64,000 nucleotides of DNA from Candidatus Mnemosynella biddleae (GTDB lineage Archaea > Halobacteriota > Archaeoglobi > Mnemosynellales > Mnemosynellaceae): NCBI GenBank assembly GCA_002011165.2, contig MTMI02000003.1:124001-188000 (forward strand), written 5' to 3'. Shown here one piece after another: positions 36,132 to 45,077 of this stretch (position 1 is its first letter; every line of letters begins with the position of its first letter). The notes beneath the pieces were generated by a model, which saw only the letters and a program-made list of their open reading frames with translations, had not been told where the DNA came from and did not search any database. Made by a program: the position numbers and the translations under genes.

Positions 36132-38099
36132 TCACCCCTCATATTCGGAAGTAAGAGCCTGAACTTGAGCTCTGATTTGTTCATCTTTGAATCCATGCTG
36201 AACGATTGCTCCTGCCGGACAGGATGCGACACACGCTCCGCAACCCTTACAAAGCACGGGATTGATCTCCGACTTGTACTTCCCATCCTTCTCAACTATC
36301 TGTGGAGCTCCATATGGACAAACTTCTTCGCATGTTCTACAGCCACCGCAGAACTCCTCGATGACCTCCGCCACAATCGGCTCAACTTTTATCTTTCCTG
36401 TGGACAGGGGAATTGCAGCAGCAGCTGCGGCTGCCTTACCCTGAGCGACAGAATCTGGAATATCCTTTGGTCCCTGAGCGCATCCCGCTATGTAAACTCC
36501 GTCTGTATTCGTATCCACAGGCCTGAGCTTCGGATGATTTTCAGTAAGCCATCCCGTCGCTCCGCATCCAATAGTGAGGAGTCTCGCCAGCTCCTGAGTT
36601 CCTGCACTTGGTTCAAGACCAACAGAAAGAACAACCATATCAGCTTCAACAATAATCGGTTCTCCGAGATCCACATCCTCGGCTTTCACGAGGAGCTTGT
36701 CTCCTTTCCTCTCGATCTCCCCGACCTTTCCTCTGATGAACTTCACTCCCTTTTCACGAGCCTGAGCATAATATTCTTCGAAATCCTTGCCCGGTGTTCT
36801 CATATCGATGTAGTGCACGTAGATGTCGATATCCGGATATTTCTCCTTGATTAGCCAAGTTTGTTTCACAGCATACATGCAACAGACTCTCGAACAGTAC
36901 GGATTGTGGTCCCTATCTCTCGAACCAACGCACTGTACCCAAGAGATGACCTTCGGTTTCTTCCCGTCTGAAGGTCTTTCAATGTGTCCTTTTGTTGGAC
37001 CGGATGCGCACATCAATCTCTCAAACTCAAGAGCTGTCAGCACATCAGGATCATCGTAATTCAAATTCGGCATCTTTCTTGGGTCAAACGGATCAAAACC
37101 TGTTGCGACTATGATAGTTCCGATTTCAAGCTCCACGATCTCCTCATTATTTTTCTCTATGTCCACCGCTCCCGCAGGACAGACTTTCATGCATTTTTTA
37201 CATCCTATGCAGTGCTCTTTATCAACAACTGCTCTTGCGGGAACAGCCTGATCAAACTGAATGTAAATTGCCCCTCTAGTGTCAAGTCCACAATTGAATT
37301 CATTTGGAACTCTAACCGGACATTCCTGAGTGCATATTCTGCATCCAGTACATTTCTCCCAGTCAACGTAAGTTGCTTTCTTCTTCACTTTCACTTTGAA
37401 ATTACCTATATATCCGCTGACTTCCTGAACCTCCGAATAAGTGAGGAGCTCAATGTTCGGATTATTTGCAACTTCGACCATCTTAGGAGCCAAAATACAA
37501 GCGGAACAATCATTCGTCGGGAAAGTCTTGTCGAGCTGTGCCATCCTTCCTCCAATCGAAGGATTCTTCTCAACGAGATAGACTTTGAAACCCATATTTG
37601 CGAGATCAAGTGCAGCATTTATCCCAGCTATTCCTCCCCCGATTACGAGAGCTCTGTCAATGACTTCAACTTCTTTCTCTTCAAGAGGTTCGAGATACCT
37701 AGCCTTTGCAACAGCACTTGCAACAAGAAGCTTTGCCTTTTCTGTTGCTTTTTCAGGGGTGCTCGGATGAGCCCAGCTACACTGATCCCTGATATTAGCT
37801 TGTTCATAGAGATATTTATTCAAGCCAGCTGAGGCGACACACTCTCGGAAGATTGGCTCATGAGTTCTGTGAGTACAGGAAGCTACGACAACTCTGTTCA
37901 CAAGCCCATCGCGAATGTCCTTCTTAATTATTTCCTGACCAGGATCGGAGCACATGTAAAGGTGTTCCCTCGCAACCACAACGTTCGGAAGTTTTGAAGC
38001 AAACTCGACGACTTCTGGAACGTTCACGACGCCACCAATATTTGTTCCGCAGTGACAGACATAAACGCCAATTCTCGGTTCCTCTGTTTTTTCACCCAT
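36132..38099 (-). CDS. hdrA: Heterodisulfide reductase subunit A (FAD, electron bifurcation)
   Basis: 655 residues. ALVIGGGIAGINAALDLANM binds FAD. Four ferredoxin-type motifs occur: CTGCRICTQECP (about 250), CIGCKKCMKVCP (about 297), CGGCRTCEEVCP (about 590) and CKGCGACVASCP (about 623). VGVYVCHCGTNIGGVV-like IGVYVCHCGTNI is the N-terminal domain. No in-frame TGA, so Cys rather than selenocysteine is used throughout. It splits hydrogenase electrons between ferredoxin and HdrB. Start ATG 38099 follows GGGAGGTAAG. Confidence 0.95.
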   Translation of the reverse strand: MGEKTEEPRIGVYVCHCGTNIGGVVNVPEVVEFASKLPNVVVAREHLYMCSDPGQEIIKKDIRDGLVNRVVVASCTHRTHEPIFRECVASAGLNKYLYEQANIRDQCSWAHPSTPEKATEKAKLLVASAVAKARYLEPLEEKEVEVIDRALVIGGGIAGINAALDLANMGFKVYLVEKNPSIGGRMAQLDKTFPTNDCSACILAPKMVEVANNPNIELLTYSEVQEVSGYIGNFKVKVKKKATYVDWEKCTGCRICTQECPVRVPNEFNCGLDTRGAIYIQFDQAVPARAVVDKEHCIGCKKCMKVCPAGAVDIEKNNEEIVELEIGTIIVATGFDPFDPRKMPNLNYDDPDVLTALEFERLMCASGPTKGHIERPSDGKKPKVISWVQCVGSRDRDHNPYCSRVCCMYAVKQTWLIKEKYPDIDIYVHYIDMRTPGKDFEEYYAQAREKGVKFIRGKVGEIERKGDKLLVKAEDVDLGEPIIVEADMVVLSVGLEPSAGTQELARLLTIGCGATGWLTENHPKLRPVDTNTDGVYIAGCAQGPKDIPDSVAQGKAAAAAAAIPLSTGKIKVEPIVAEVIEEFCGGCRTCEEVCPYGAPQIVEKDGKYKSEINPVLCKGCGACVASCPAGAIVQHGFKDEQIRAQVQALTSEYEG

Positions 38100-38102
38100 C
38101 AA

Positions 38103-38457
38103 TTCTTACCTCCCTTTTTTAGAGAATCTACTTGTTTGAAGGTGGCGATAAAGCCACATATATATTTAACGAAACTCCTCCAAACGAAAAGAGATCTAGA
38201 ACCGCTTTATTAACTTTTAGGCTTTTTGACTAACTTATAATGCTATTTAAATGATTTTGGTGTGTAAATAAAAGAAAATGAGGTTTTGATAGCTTTTTCG
38301 AAATTTCGGAGAAATTATAAAGATGAAAAATAATGATGTTTCCTTACCTATTTCACTCTGAGGAAAAGAAGTGGAGAAAATTTATAATAATATAATATGT
38401 TTTGATGGGGACTGTAAAAAGCGGAGGGATGAGTGTGAAATTCAGGAGGATGATTGA
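38103..38457. other. Divergent intergenic region between hdrA and the first antiporter gene
   Basis: 355 bases without a gene. The hdrA TATA (minus strand TTAAATATATAT) is at about 38158-38169. GTGGC-GATAAA-GCCAC (38142-38157) is an inverted repeat just inside it, placed between TATA and transcription start as an operator would be. Toward the antiporter, TTTATAATAATATAAT (38381-38396) is its TATA region, and AAAAATAATGATGTTTCC (38326-38343) recurs before the second antiporter gene. Confidence 0.5.
38326..38343 (+). promoter_or_regulatory. Conserved upstream element of antiporter gene 1
   Basis: AAAAATAATGATGTTTCC, matching 17 of 18 bases at 39579-39596 before the second copy, at a similar distance (about 110 bases) from each ATG. 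Upstream of both TATA boxes, so an activator site or a leftover of the duplication. Confidence 0.45.
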
Positions 38458-39468
38458 ATGAATGGTGTCACAGTTCTTTTCGCAGAAGTCATAGCTCTCG
38501 CAGTTGGAGTTATGGCATTCACCATTGGCTATGTGAACGCTGTTGAGGTCCTCGGAAGACAGCTCGGTCTTTCGGATACTGCAGCTGGAAGCATTCTCGC
38601 ATCTCTTGGAACTGCAACTCCAGAAACACTCGTTCCAGTCATAGCAATTCTTGTAGTTGGAGGAACTGGCGGTCACGAGGTTGGAATCGGTGCTATTCTT
38701 GGTGCTCCGTTTATGTTGGCAACTATTGCTTTATTCGTTGTTGGAATCGTAGCTACTATCGGAGTTCTCTCGAAGAAAAGAGAAGATCCATATCTCCATC
38801 TGGAAAGTGGAATTTTAAGAAACTTCAAATTCTTCTTCGTCTTCTACCCATTAGCAGTGATTGCAGCAATAATCCATATTCCACTATTCCACAAATTACT
38901 AGCGCTGTTCTTAGTCCTTGGATATGCCTACTATGTCTACATCACGATAAAATCTCCTGAAGAAGGAGAGGAAGAAGAGGAGGGACAACTTTTCCTTGGT
39001 AAACTGTTGAAGAAGGAGAGTACGGCACTTAGCGTTTTTCAGTTGATTGTATCACTGTTGATAATGATATACCTGATTAAACTCTTTACAGAGAGACTCG
39101 ATGAACTGGCACTTCATCTAGGCATTTCAGTAATGCTCCTCTCTCTGGTCATTGCACCTCTTGCAACTGAGCTTCCAGAAGTAGGAGGAGCCAGTGTTTT
39201 CTGGACTTGGAGAAGGAAAGATACTCTGGCTCTTGGAAATATTACGGGTGCAATGGTATATCAGAGCTCAATTGCAGTTGCAATAGGACTGTTCTTCACC
39301 GAATGGGCTCTTGATCCGACAGTAGCGGTAACTGTGGTTCTTGCACTTATCTCCGGTGGAATAGTCTTTGCGTGGTATGCAGCAAAGAAGGAGCTAAATG
39401 CCTACACAACGCTGATTGCAGGAATATTCTACTTTGCCTTCCTGTACTACGCTTTCACCTTAGTTTAA
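38458..39468 (+). CDS. Calcium/cation antiporter, CaCA family (copy 1)
   Basis: 336 residues with about ten membrane helices in two halves. The alpha repeats are LGLSDTAAGSILASLGTATP-ETLVP (about 39-63) and LVIAPLATELPEVGGAS (about 228-244), each with the acidic residue that binds the cation. A charged cytoplasmic loop (PEEGEEEEEGQ) lies between. It likely exchanges Ca2+ for Na+ or H+. ATG follows AGGAGGATGATT. It is 73 percent or more identical by eye to the next gene, with a perfectly identical end. Confidence 0.85.
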   Translation: MNGVTVLFAEVIALAVGVMAFTIGYVNAVEVLGRQLGLSDTAAGSILASLGTATPETLVPVIAILVVGGTGGHEVGIGAILGAPFMLATIALFVVGIVATIGVLSKKREDPYLHLESGILRNFKFFFVFYPLAVIAAIIHIPLFHKLLALFLVLGYAYYVYITIKSPEEGEEEEEGQLFLGKLLKKESTALSVFQLIVSLLIMIYLIKLFTERLDELALHLGISVMLLSLVIAPLATELPEVGGASVFWTWRRKDTLALGNITGAMVYQSSIAVAIGLFFTEWALDPTVAVTVVLALISGGIVFAWYAAKKELNAYTTLIAGIFYFAFLYYAFTLV

Positions 39469-39470
39469 AA
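39134..39470 (+). repeat. 337-bp tract identical to 40381-40717
   Basis: The last 335 coding bases plus two beyond the stop of antiporter copy 1 match copy 2 with no mismatch, including all third codon positions, while the middle of the two genes differs widely. This is a mark of recent gene conversion. Confidence 0.95.
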
Positions 39471-39578
39471 TTTTGAAATTTTTCATCATTTAATTAATTT
39501 ATTTTTTATATCCAAGCTCCATTAGGAGTTTCTGGTAAATTTCTTGTTTTTCTGCGACGACAATGAAGATAAATAATA

Positions 39579-39596
39579 AAAAATAATGATATTTCC
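39579..39596 (+). promoter_or_regulatory. Conserved upstream element of antiporter gene 2
   Basis: AAAAATAATGATATTTCC, 17 of 18 bases as at 38326-38343. TATA (ATTATATAATC) follows at about 39635-39645. The leader just before the ATG (GGGATG...GGGGGATGATTAA) is also like that of copy 1. Confidence 0.45.
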
Positions 39597-39701
39597 ACCC
39601 CTCTCGGATTTGAGTATGAATGTACCAGAGAAAAATTATATAATCGTGCTAGAAGTTGTGAGAAGCTGAGGGATGCTCATGAAACTCAGGGGGATGATTA
39701 A

Positions 39702-40715
39702 ATGAGTGATGCTACAATCCTTTTCGCAGAAGTCATAGCTCTCGCAGTTGGAGTTATGGCATTCACTCTCTTTTACGTGAACGCTGTTGAGGTCCTCGGA
39801 AGACAGCTCGGTCTTTCGGATACTGCAGCTGGAAGCATTCTCGCATCTCTTGGAACTGCAACTCCAGAGACTCTGGTGCCTTTGATTGCGATTCTTGTAG
39901 TTGGAGGAACTGGCGGTCATGATGTTGGAGTAGGTGCTATTCTCGGTGCTCCGTTTATGCTCACCACTATTGCTCTCTTCGTTGTTGGAGTTACAGCACT
40001 TATCGGACTTCTCATGAAAAGAAGGCGATCGCCCGTTCTTGATCTTGAGAGCGGAATCATCAGAAATTTCAAGTTTTTCTTCATTTTCTATCCTCTGGCA
40101 ATCATTGCAGCGTTCATCAGAGTACCAACCCTTCATAAAATTCTCGGAGCTCTTCTAATCCTCGGATACGCCTATTACGTTTACATTACCATCAGAACTC
40201 CAGGTGAAGAGCATGAAGAGGAAGAGCACGGAGAACTCTGGCTCAGTAAGCTGATCAAAAAAGAGAGTAGAGCCTTAACAGTCTTCCAGCTAATTGCCTC
40301 CTTCCTAATCATGGTTCTTCTCATAAAGATGTTTACCGAGAGACTTGACGAGCTTGCATATCACCTCGGAATTGCGACAGTGCTCCTCTCTCTGGTCATT
40401 GCACCTCTTGCAACTGAGCTTCCAGAAGTAGGAGGAGCCAGTGTTTTCTGGACTTGGAGAAGGAAAGATACTCTGGCTCTTGGAAATATTACGGGTGCAA
40501 TGGTATATCAGAGCTCAATTGCAGTTGCAATAGGACTGTTCTTCACCGAATGGGCTCTTGATCCGACAGTAGCGGTAACTGTGGTTCTTGCACTTATCTC
40601 CGGTGGAATAGTCTTTGCGTGGTATGCAGCAAAGAAGGAGCTAAATGCCTACACAACGCTGATTGCAGGAATATTCTACTTTGCCTTCCTGTACTACGCT
40701 TTCACCTTAGTTTAA
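39702..40715 (+). CDS. Calcium/cation antiporter, CaCA family (copy 2)
   Basis: 337 residues, tandem paralogue of the preceding gene. Same alpha repeats (LGLSDTAAGSILASLGTATP; LVIAPLATELPEVGGAS), same helices; differences are concentrated at about residues 63-225, including the acidic loop GEEHEEEEHGELW. Own promoter and ribosome binding site (GGGGGATGATTAA). Two differing middle regions with a shared pore end suggest different regulation or cation preference. Confidence 0.85.
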   Translation: MSDATILFAEVIALAVGVMAFTLFYVNAVEVLGRQLGLSDTAAGSILASLGTATPETLVPLIAILVVGGTGGHDVGVGAILGAPFMLTTIALFVVGVTALIGLLMKRRRSPVLDLESGIIRNFKFFFIFYPLAIIAAFIRVPTLHKILGALLILGYAYYVYITIRTPGEEHEEEEHGELWLSKLIKKESRALTVFQLIASFLIMVLLIKMFTERLDELAYHLGIATVLLSLVIAPLATELPEVGGASVFWTWRRKDTLALGNITGAMVYQSSIAVAIGLFFTEWALDPTVAVTVVLALISGGIVFAWYAAKKELNAYTTLIAGIFYFAFLYYAFTLV

Positions 40716-40717
40716 AA
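40381..40717 (+). repeat. 337-bp tract identical to 39134-39470
   Basis: Second copy of the perfect repeat at the end of the tandem antiporter genes. Shorter perfect tracts are at 38533-38624/39777-39868 (92 bases) and 38476-38522/39720-39766 (47 bases). Confidence 0.95.
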
Positions 40718-40744: not shown

Positions 40745-42982
40745 TCATGCTACTTCAGCACCAGGCTTTGCAAATTCTTTGTTTCTGGTGAAACGAGCAT
40801 AAAGAGCTTTATATCTCTCAAGTTCATCCTTTGTAACAGTTGGTTTTAGTTTCTTGAGTGCCTCCTCAAAGTGTCTCTTCTCGATCTTTAGATCCTTGAG
40901 CTTTTTCTTAACTTCTTCTCTCGAATCTCCTAGTTTTATTGTTTCTCTCATAGCCAAGAGAGATGCCTCTCTAACAATTGCTTCTATGTCCGCTCCGACA
41001 TACCCATCTGTGATCTTAGCGAGATGATCAATATCCACATCCTCTGCAAGTGGTTTTCCTTTGAGATGAACCTTGAAGATCGCTTTTCTCGCCTCGAAAT
41101 CTGGAGGCCCAACGTAGATCAACCTATCGAGTCTTCCCGGTCTGAGGAGTGCTGGATCTATGATATCTGGCCTGTTAGTGGCTGCAATCACTACTACTCC
41201 TCTAAGTTCTTCGAGTCCATCCATCTCAGTTAGAAGTTGTGAGACTACCCTCTCTGTAACATTTGAATCAAAGCCTTCGCCTCTTCTTGGGGCTATTGAA
41301 TCGAGCTCATCTAGGAAAACAATTGTTGGAGCTGTTTGTCTAGCTTTCTTGAATATCTCCCTGATTGCTTTCTCACTCTCTCCAACCCATTTGCTCATGA
41401 TCTCTGGTCCTTTAATTGAAATGAAGTTTGCGTCACTTTCATTCGCAACTGCTTTTGCCAGAAGTGTCTTTCCAGTTCCTGGCGGACCATACAACAGAAT
41501 TCCTTTAGGAGGTTCTGTATTCAAAGCTTCAAAAGCCTCAGGATATTTTAGAGGCCACTCTACAGCCTCTCTAAGTTCTTGCTTCACATCCTCAAGACCT
41601 CCGATATCATCCCATCTGACCTCTGGAACCTCCACAAGTACTTCTCTCATTGCAGAGGGTTCCACTTTCTTAAGAGCCTCCATGAAATCATCTCTTGTTA
41701 CTACAAGACTCTCTATTATCTCTTTTGGAATTTCCTCTGCCTCAATATCAATCTTTGGAATGACTCTTCTAAGAGCATTCATAGCAGCTTCCTTGCACAG
41801 AGCAGCTATATCAGCTCCAACGAATCCGTGAGTCCTCTCAGCAAGTTCCTCTAAGTCAACATCGTCTGCAAGTGGCATTTTTCTAGTATGAACTTCAAGA
41901 ATCTCTTTTCTTCCATTTTTATCAGGGACTCCAATTTCAATCTCTCTGTCAAATCTTCCTGGTCTTCTGAGAGCTGGGTCTACTGCATCTGGCCTGTTAG
42001 TGGCTGCAATCACTACTACTTTTCCTCTGCTTTTCAATCCATCCATTAAAGTGAGAAGCTGAGCAACGACTCTTCTCTCGACTTCTCCAGTAACTTCTTC
42101 TCTCTTTGGAGCTATGGAATCAATTTCATCTATGAAGATGATTGAGGGAGCGTTTTCCTCAGCTTTTTCGAAAATCTCTCTCAACTGCTTCTCGCTCTCT
42201 CCATAATACTTGCTCATGATCTCGGGACCAGCTATCGAATAGAAATTGGCTTGAACCTCGTTCGCAACTGCCTTGGCTATTAGAGTTTTACCAGTTCCAG
42301 GAGGTCCATGGAGCAGAACTCCTTTTGGAGGCTCTATTCCAAGTCTTCTGAAAAGCTCAGGGTGTTTCATTGGAAGCTCTATCATCTCTCTAACTTGCTC
42401 AAGCTCTTTCTTTAGACCCCCTATATCTTCATATGTTACTTCTGGAATGGCTCCAATCTCTTCAGCTCTTTCTCTGATGTCAATCTGAGTTCTTTCTGTG
42501 ACTACTACAACCCCAGAAGGTCTTGTCTGCACAACAGTGAATACAATTGGTTCTCCGATCATTCCATACATTCCATGGTACCTCAGATTCATTCCTTCCC
42601 ACACCGGCATGTTTATCATATCATTCCTAAGGACAGTCTTTAAGCCCTGAAGATTTGTAAGCTGCATCTCCCTAGCTGGTGCAAGAACAACTCTCTGTGC
42701 TTCTTTGACCTCTGCTTTCTTCACAGAAACTCTATCTCCGATGCTGACTCCAGCAGCTCTTCTCAGATATCCATCCATTCTGATTATTTCCCTGTCATAA
42801 ATTTCCTCTCTGGGGTCTCTTGGAAGAACCTTAGCGTAAGCACTTTTCGAACCTACGATTTCAACGAAATCTCCTGTCTGAACTCCAAGCTTTCTCATAA
42901 CCTCTCTATCAATTCTCACAATTCCCCTACCCACATCCTGATGATAAGCTTCAGCAACTTTAAGTGTGATATCCTCATTCAT
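40745..42982 (-). CDS. cdc48: CDC48/VCP-like AAA+ ATPase
   Basis: About 745 residues: N-terminal double-psi barrel (to about 185), then two AAA domains. D1: [32 protein letters not shown]2: [31 protein letters not shown]. Arg fingers ([26 protein letters not shown]) are present. It unfolds proteins for degradation or remodelling. Start ATG 42982 with GGAGGTGAG; the frame extends to TTG 42997, inside the regulator gene. Co-transcribed with the ArsR-type regulator, as in the heat-inducible HSR1-cdc48 operon of A. fulgidus. Confidence 0.95.
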
Positions 42983-42987
42983 TTTTC

Positions 42988-43500
42988 TCACCTCCAACTT
43001 TCATCTTCTTCCAGTTCCAGAAGCGTTTGATTGGATCTTTCAAGGATTGATCTCTCCACCAGCTTTACAAACTCAGAGTGAAGAGCTCTCTGAATGGTCG
43101 AGAGCTCTCTCATAAGAGACCGTATTGCTTTTATTCTTTCCGATATATCTTCCATGTCCTCAAGAACCCTTTCAAGGGCATTATTGACTCTTTCTCTTAA
43201 AGTTTTCAGATCAACGTCTTCTTCGTTTGGACAGCTAATCTCAAAGTTGAAGGGAGATAGGAATATCTCCATATGAAGATCCTTTGAGACGTAGTAGTAT
43301 TTCCTTTTCTGCTCTCCATAGAAGCACTCTATGATGCCTGAAGCTTCTAAGGCTTCAAGATGCTCAATTACAGCTTTGGGACTGATTTTAAGAGTTTCAG
43401 AGATTTCAGTAACGTAACACGGCTTTTGAGAGAGTAATCTAAGTATTCTCCTGCGATTTGGATTTCCGAGAAGATCCATGACACGCTCCTGAAATTTCAT
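42988..43500 (-). CDS. ArsR-family heat-shock regulator, HSR1-like
   Basis: 170 residues. An N-terminal winged helix ([40 protein letters not shown]) is followed by a wing ([11 protein letters not shown]) and a long helical C-terminal half (about 95-165) for dimerisation. In A. fulgidus the regulator HSR1 lies before cdc48 and binds CTAAC-N5-GTTAG at its own promoter (established knowledge); the same site lies one base upstream of this ATG. So autorepression released by heat is the best reading. Confidence 0.82.
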
Positions 43501-43997: not shown

Positions 43998-45077
43998 TCA
44001 CCTGAGACAACTCCAGTAGCTAGAATGCACCATTTTCACTTCTTCTATATTTTTTCTGAGCTTAATTAAAGCTTTTTCGTCCTTTCTCATCCTCAGATAA
44101 ACCAAATAGTTCTCTGGCTCTCTGATCTGAGAGATGTCCAGCCCAGCCATTGCTGCTATTATTCCGAGATTTGTATAGGGAAGGGCTCCTTCAACACTGT
44201 AACCTCCTTCAAGAACTGCAACGAGTTTTCCCTTGCAGAATCTTTCGGATAGTTTAACTGCCTCTCTCATGATCTCTGCATATCCTCTTGCAGTTAGAGC
44301 AAGTTCAGTAATTGGATCGGTGAAATGATTGTCTTGGCCTGCGGAAATTGCTATGAACTCTGGGGAGAACTCTTCAACAACTGGTTTTATTATTTCATCC
44401 ATTACTAGCATGTAACCCTCGTCAGAAGTTCCAGGAGGAAGAGGAATGTTGATGGTGAAGCCTTCTCCTTCAGCTATTCCACATTCGTAAGGATATCCTG
44501 TCCCAGGATAGAGAGGTATCTGATGAGTTGAAATGTAGAGAACTGAAGGATTATCATAGAAGATTTCCTGAGTTCCGTCACCATGATGCGCATCCCAATC
44601 AAGGATCAGAATTCTCCTAAATCCCTTCTTCTGAAGCCATCTTACCATTATTGCAATGTTATTGAGATAGCAGAAGCCAGCACCAATATGCGGTTTTGCA
44701 TGATGTCCCGGTGGTCTGACCATCGCAAAAGCATTCTTGACTTCTCCCTTCAAAACCGCCTCAGCAGCCCTTATAGCTCCTCCTGCTGCCAGAACCGCAA
44801 CATCAAAAAGTCCCACCGGAATGTTTGTGTCCCAATCTATGATTCCTCCAGTTTTACTCTTCCTTATGAGAAAATTAACATACTCTTCTGTATGCACCTC
44901 GAGGATGTCTTCAATAGATGCTTCAAAGGGCTCCAGAATTTTGATCTCGGGAGAATCGAATATCCCTTCTTCTAAAAGCTGATCCATCGTATATACCAAT
45001 CTTTCCTTTCTCTCTGGATGTGTGGCACTCTGCTCGTATTCGAGATATTTTCTGTGATAAACGATTCCCGTAACCAT
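43998..45077 (-). CDS. Histone deacetylase / acetylpolyamine amidohydrolase family enzyme
   Basis: About 359 residues of the arginase-deacetylase fold. VRPPGHHAKPHIGAGFCYLN has the paired His, DWDAHHGDGTQEIF the zinc Asp/His, and FIAISAGQDNH and VLEGGYSVEGALPY later active-site pieces. Possible substrates are acetyl-lysine (Alba, histones) or acetylated polyamines. Start ATG 45077, nine bases after GAGG; TTG 45086 is the alternative. It follows hydantoinase A with a short overlap or gap. Confidence 0.88.
   Translation of the reverse strand: MVTGIVYHRKYLEYEQSATHPERKERLVYTMDQLLEEGIFDSPEIKILEPFEASIEDILEVHTEEYVNFLIRKSKTGGIIDWDTNIPVGLFDVAVLAAGGAIRAAEAVLKGEVKNAFAMVRPPGHHAKPHIGAGFCYLNNIAIMVRWLQKKGFRRILILDWDAHHGDGTQEIFYDNPSVLYISTHQIPLYPGTGYPYECGIAEGEGFTINIPLPPGTSDEGYMLVMDEIIKPVVEEFSPEFIAISAGQDNHFTDPITELALTARGYAEIMREAVKLSERFCKGKLVAVLEGGYSVEGALPYTNLGIIAAMAGLDISQIREPENYLVYLRMRKDEKALIKLRKNIEEVKMVHSSYWSCLR

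Follow-up and report, generated by a model that had tools for sequence, protein, structure and literature searches.

How can two adjacent genes of one archaeal genome match letter for letter near their ends and yet differ widely in between? The question is raised by a pair of predicted antiporter genes in Candidatus Mnemosynella biddleae, here called A and B, which lie head to tail on the plus strand of the window (the whole 64-kb stretch of DNA analyzed). The pair sits deep within a 341-kb contig of a genome made up of 11 contigs and is flanked by a probable hdrA gene and a Cdc48-type ATPase gene:

36132-38102, minus strand: neighbor with ferredoxin and FAD domains, probably hdrA, on the 38223 side of the antiporter pair
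38458-39468, plus strand: gene A, open reading frame for a predicted CaCA-family antiporter of 336 aa (PF01699, E = 9.4e-21)
39702-40715, plus strand: gene B, open reading frame for a predicted CaCA-family antiporter of 337 aa (PF01699, E = 2.8e-22)
40745-42997, minus strand: neighbor beyond gene B, Cdc48-type ATPase

PF01699 matches twice per protein in A and B (74.8 and 79.7 bits, cut-off 24.9), so that each has the two Na_Ca_ex domains above the curated cut-off that define the CaCA superfamily. Scores against TIGR00367, the NCBIfam calcium/sodium antiporter model, are 66 to 72 bits and fall below its cut-off of 180 bits; the transport function of A and B is a prediction from family resemblance only. 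As in NCX_Mj (MJ0091) and other CaCA antiporters whose structures are known, both proteins have two alpha repeats with aligned GTxxPE-type motifs, and a profile of the A/B family finds NCX_Mj at 2e-21. In the A/B subfamily, however, D240 and S210 of NCX_Mj align with Q and E, respectively, and N81 and S51 fall on L and A when the motifs are read by eye. Several ion ligands of NCX_Mj are thus replaced, the family match does not predict the substrate, and A and B may be specific for other ions than a Na+/Ca2+ exchanger.

Aligning the two genes confirms the lengths of the three exact tracts (337, 92, and 47 bases) given by an earlier sequence-only reading of this DNA, which had left out one further exact run of 29 bases. 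The widely differing middle that it described is also borne out: residues 89 to 226 of A share 66% DNA and 70% protein identity with B, with synonymous sites near saturation. From 5' to 3', the segments are as follows:

38476-38522, plus strand: 5' tract of A, 47 bp, identical to 39720-39766 in B
38523-38532, plus strand: divergent patch of 10 bp with 7 differences, between the 47- and 92-bp tracts (39767-39776 in B)
38533-38624, plus strand: 5' tract of A, 92 bp, identical to 39777-39868 in B and reaching the alpha-1 motif GTATPE
38647-38675, plus strand: further identical run of 29 bp in A, equal to 39891-39919 in B
38720-39133, plus strand: unconverted middle of A (about 39964-40380 in B)
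39134-39470, plus strand: 3' homogenized tract of 337 bp in A
40381-40717, plus strand: 3' homogenized tract of 337 bp in B, identical to that in A

Divergence between A and B is intermediate in the stretch 38625-38719. Within the 10-bp patch, the B residues LF agree with those of single-copy relatives, whereas the A residues IG do not; a patch of this kind between identical tracts points to several short events or to a change confined to this spot in A. In the whole genome, the 337-base tract has exactly two occurrences, and no other exact 40-mer repeats, direct or inverted, were found within the window.

The duplication is not confined to the coding sequences. When the region upstream of A (38103-38457) was searched, the spacer 39471-39701 aligned with it from 38223/39471 to just before the start codons, with a local alignment score of 99 against a shuffle maximum of 50. 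Because the spacer is homologous to the upstream region of A, the locus consists of two abutting units of approximately 1,247 bp:

38223-39470, plus strand: tandem unit 1, upstream region and gene A, from local alignment (the 5' edge is an estimate)
39471-40717, plus strand: tandem unit 2, upstream region and gene B, directly abutting unit 1

In the identity profile, the two upstream regions are approximately 60% identical, a level low enough to mark the duplication as old. The sequences following unit 1 and unit 2 show no significant homology (score of 28, shuffle maximum of 41), and the 3' identical tract ends at precisely the point where the two units cease to be homologous, which is what conversion running out to the limit of homology would leave.

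Synonymous sites give the strongest contrast between the segments. At fourfold sites, A and B show no difference in the 3' tract (0/66) and differ at 22 of 38 sites in the middle (Fisher P about 1e-12), with a single difference at 34 sites in the 5' tracts (P about 4e-7). The NG86 dS is 0 in the 3' tract, and the middle is saturated to the point that no value can be computed. The 284 codons with a shared residue in A and B were put in random order 100,000 times: the longest observed run without a synonymous change (111 codons) was not equaled in any shuffle (maximum of 52), and a second run of 30 codons in the 5' part was reached in only one. The 95% upper bound for the 3' tract is 4.4% per fourfold site, so that the identity there is recent. 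An excess of synonymous-site identity between paralogues, one of the marks of interlocus conversion, is therefore present at this locus.

These observations are very probably explained by an old tandem duplication and a long period of divergence, followed by recent ectopic gene conversion, or paired unequal crossovers, at the ends of the genes. An ancestral antiporter gene would have been duplicated head to tail together with its upstream region, and the A and B copies would then have diverged over a long time. At least one recent ectopic intrachromosomal conversion between the neighbors (or an equivalent pair of unequal crossovers) would have overwritten the last 337 bp of one copy, the recipient, with those of the other, and one or more short events would likewise have homogenized the first approximately 150 bp. 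The homogenized ends would mark where recombination last acted, with the 3' tract extending right up to the edge of the duplicated unit, since there is no homology beyond it. The claim that tandem antiporters are undergoing conversion holds as regards the tandem genes and the conversion, given the synonymous sites and the single-copy control described below; "ongoing" overstates the case, as it would require a second genome.

Among the other readings, we consider unlikely an assembly artifact, in which similar but not identical 3' ends were collapsed into one sequence or the pair is a chimera of strains. The 337-bp repeat is longer than an ordinary short read and the genome is in several contigs, and the exact identity could have been sharpened by assembly. 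Against this, each copy has its own flanks, the pair lies far from the contig ends, and the spacer, as a diverged counterpart of the sequence upstream of A, is not something that a false join would produce. Moreover, only tracts that already resembled each other far more than the 66% identical middle could have been collapsed, and a collapse would weaken the exactness of the tracts, not their contrast with the middle.

A reading that we regard as improbable is that selection favors repeated short conversions, which would keep the transport core uniform and let a central module (from late helix 3 to helix 6, with the loop) specialize. If true, the two genes would form a system in which the core is common to both and regulation or partners differ. 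Helix limits were taken from an AlphaFold model built from three sequences (mean pLDDT of 38.8), of which only these approximate limits were used. On these low-confidence limits, the 3' tract would span helices 7 to 10, i.e., the alpha-2 core plus the peripheral helices 9 and 10, and the 5' tracts would take in helix 1 and the beginning of alpha-1 (residues 7 to 56, 96% protein identity), with the variable part running approximately from late helix 3 through helix 6. The idea that the pore is uniform and the first-half helices vary is accordingly correct for alpha-2 and incomplete elsewhere, as helix 1, part of alpha-1, and helices 9 and 10 are also nearly identical. Within the antiporter family, conservation is highest in the two alpha repeats; the last two helices differ widely among relatives and are identical in A and B. 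Recombination near the gene ends, rather than selection singling out the pore, is the simpler reading.

About 750 genomes were searched for a relative carrying the A/B pair, and none was found, whether among 60 relatives that make up nearly all of the class, among 393 genomes from the phylum, or among 299 relatives of the clostridial homologue; plasmids and viral contigs gave none either. The only congener (G001) was rejected as evidence of the absence of the pair, since its assembly breaks on either side of the locus: one contig terminates within hdrA and the next begins near the gene at 43998, which places the antiporter region in an assembly gap (on C150:1, L120, an hdrA fragment 94% identical at the contig end; on C102:1, L121, the 43998 gene, 86% identical, near the contig start). 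Its Cdc48 gene on contig C32 was likewise rejected as a marker of the locus, being a paralogue (56%) that neighbors a RadA-like gene. Among the homologues found, the nearest are the single-copy genes L062 and L037/L058, from two genomes of which one is labeled a clostridial MAG and the other is its relative (57% and 56% identity by tblastn); L058 is the same gene as in Clostridia bacterium 41_269. Homologues in the archaeon's own class reach about 40% identity or less, which suggests transfer between domains. With respect to the clostridial genes, trees of the middle segment alone are compatible with A and B being sisters or not (AU P = 0.35 and 0.42). Another genome of the phylum (G249) carries an independent tandem pair of the same family (L047, 280-1281 and 1504-2487, minus strand), with 78% of the DNA alignment columns identical; its longest exact runs are 56 and 45 bases, i.e., it has no long homogenized end tract.

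If the whole gene had been duplicated recently and one copy had then acquired its middle from a foreign homologue, this would equally yield identical ends and a different middle, and related genes do occur across domains. Nevertheless, we hold this to be very improbable, given that the upstream regions of both units have diverged as well, that no sequence found is as close to either middle as the middles of A and B are to one another, and that third-position GC is similar. The 10-bp patch and the intermediate stretch before the middle would, in addition, require several replacements.

The two single-copy relatives, L062 and L058, served as a control for constraint. Their fourfold differences show no significant contrast between the 3' part (22/60) and the middle (34/72; P = 0.29). 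Over the 3' part, 30 of 44 fourfold sites distinguish L062 from A and likewise from B, and protein identity to L062 is only 65%; fourfold sites there are thus free to change. In the equivalents of A residues 7 to 56 (the alpha-1 region), the control pair has a low fourfold divergence (2/28 versus 34/72 in the middle, P about 1e-4), possibly due to local constraint or recombination. As the control pair is also slow in this segment, the 5' tracts carry less weight than the 3' tract, and identity beyond protein constraint, a further mark of interlocus conversion, is found for the 3' tract relative to L062/L058 and is less certain for the 5' tracts. Purifying selection alone, keeping functional ends alike without conversion, would agree with the conservation of the alpha repeats and with the slow 5' segment of the control pair, but it has next to no likelihood, being refuted in the 3' tract by the identity of all 66 fourfold sites, by the divergence of both copies from L062 (a third of residues included), and by last helices that vary widely in relatives and not between A and B. 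The synonymous contrast between the 3' part and the middle is absent from the single-copy relatives, and neither constraint nor a simple recent duplication can explain the A/B pattern.

Read as old duplication with recent conversion at the ends, the A/B pair is a clean natural case of partial conversion between neighboring archaeal genes, in which an old, diverged middle is combined with newly matched ends. The segment chosen affects any tree of such genes, and a reader of the exact 3' identity by itself would be misled into assuming that the duplication is recent.

That paralogues can convert one another in part is well established. Open-access papers yielded nothing relevant on gene conversion together with calcium exchangers, and the closest parallels come from other families. 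An archaeal precedent is mtrA-1/mtrA-2 in Methanococcales and Methanomicrobiales, also tandem duplicates in which one domain is homogenized by conversion and another part differs (PMC4632066). That pair, however, recurs in many species and its differing part stems from fusion (PMC4632066), whereas A/B is known from one genome and one family and its middle differs by ordinary divergence. In RF1-RF2 of Bacteroidia and Chloroflexi, a shared domain was exchanged by gene conversion (PMC4530459); the likeness lies in conversion being limited to the domain with a shared job in long-diverged paralogues, and the difference in that those events are old and were found by phylogeny (PMC4530459), while A/B shows recent, exact identity of neighbors. 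Long-lasting concerted evolution in prokaryotes has been cataloged for tuf and other genes, whose paralogues are likewise more alike than expected at synonymous and nonsynonymous sites (PMC6053082); there it is long-lasting and recurrent across species (PMC6053082), unlike in the single genome with A/B. Set beside these systems, the A/B pair is a clear and well-supported example of a well-known process, ordinary in kind.
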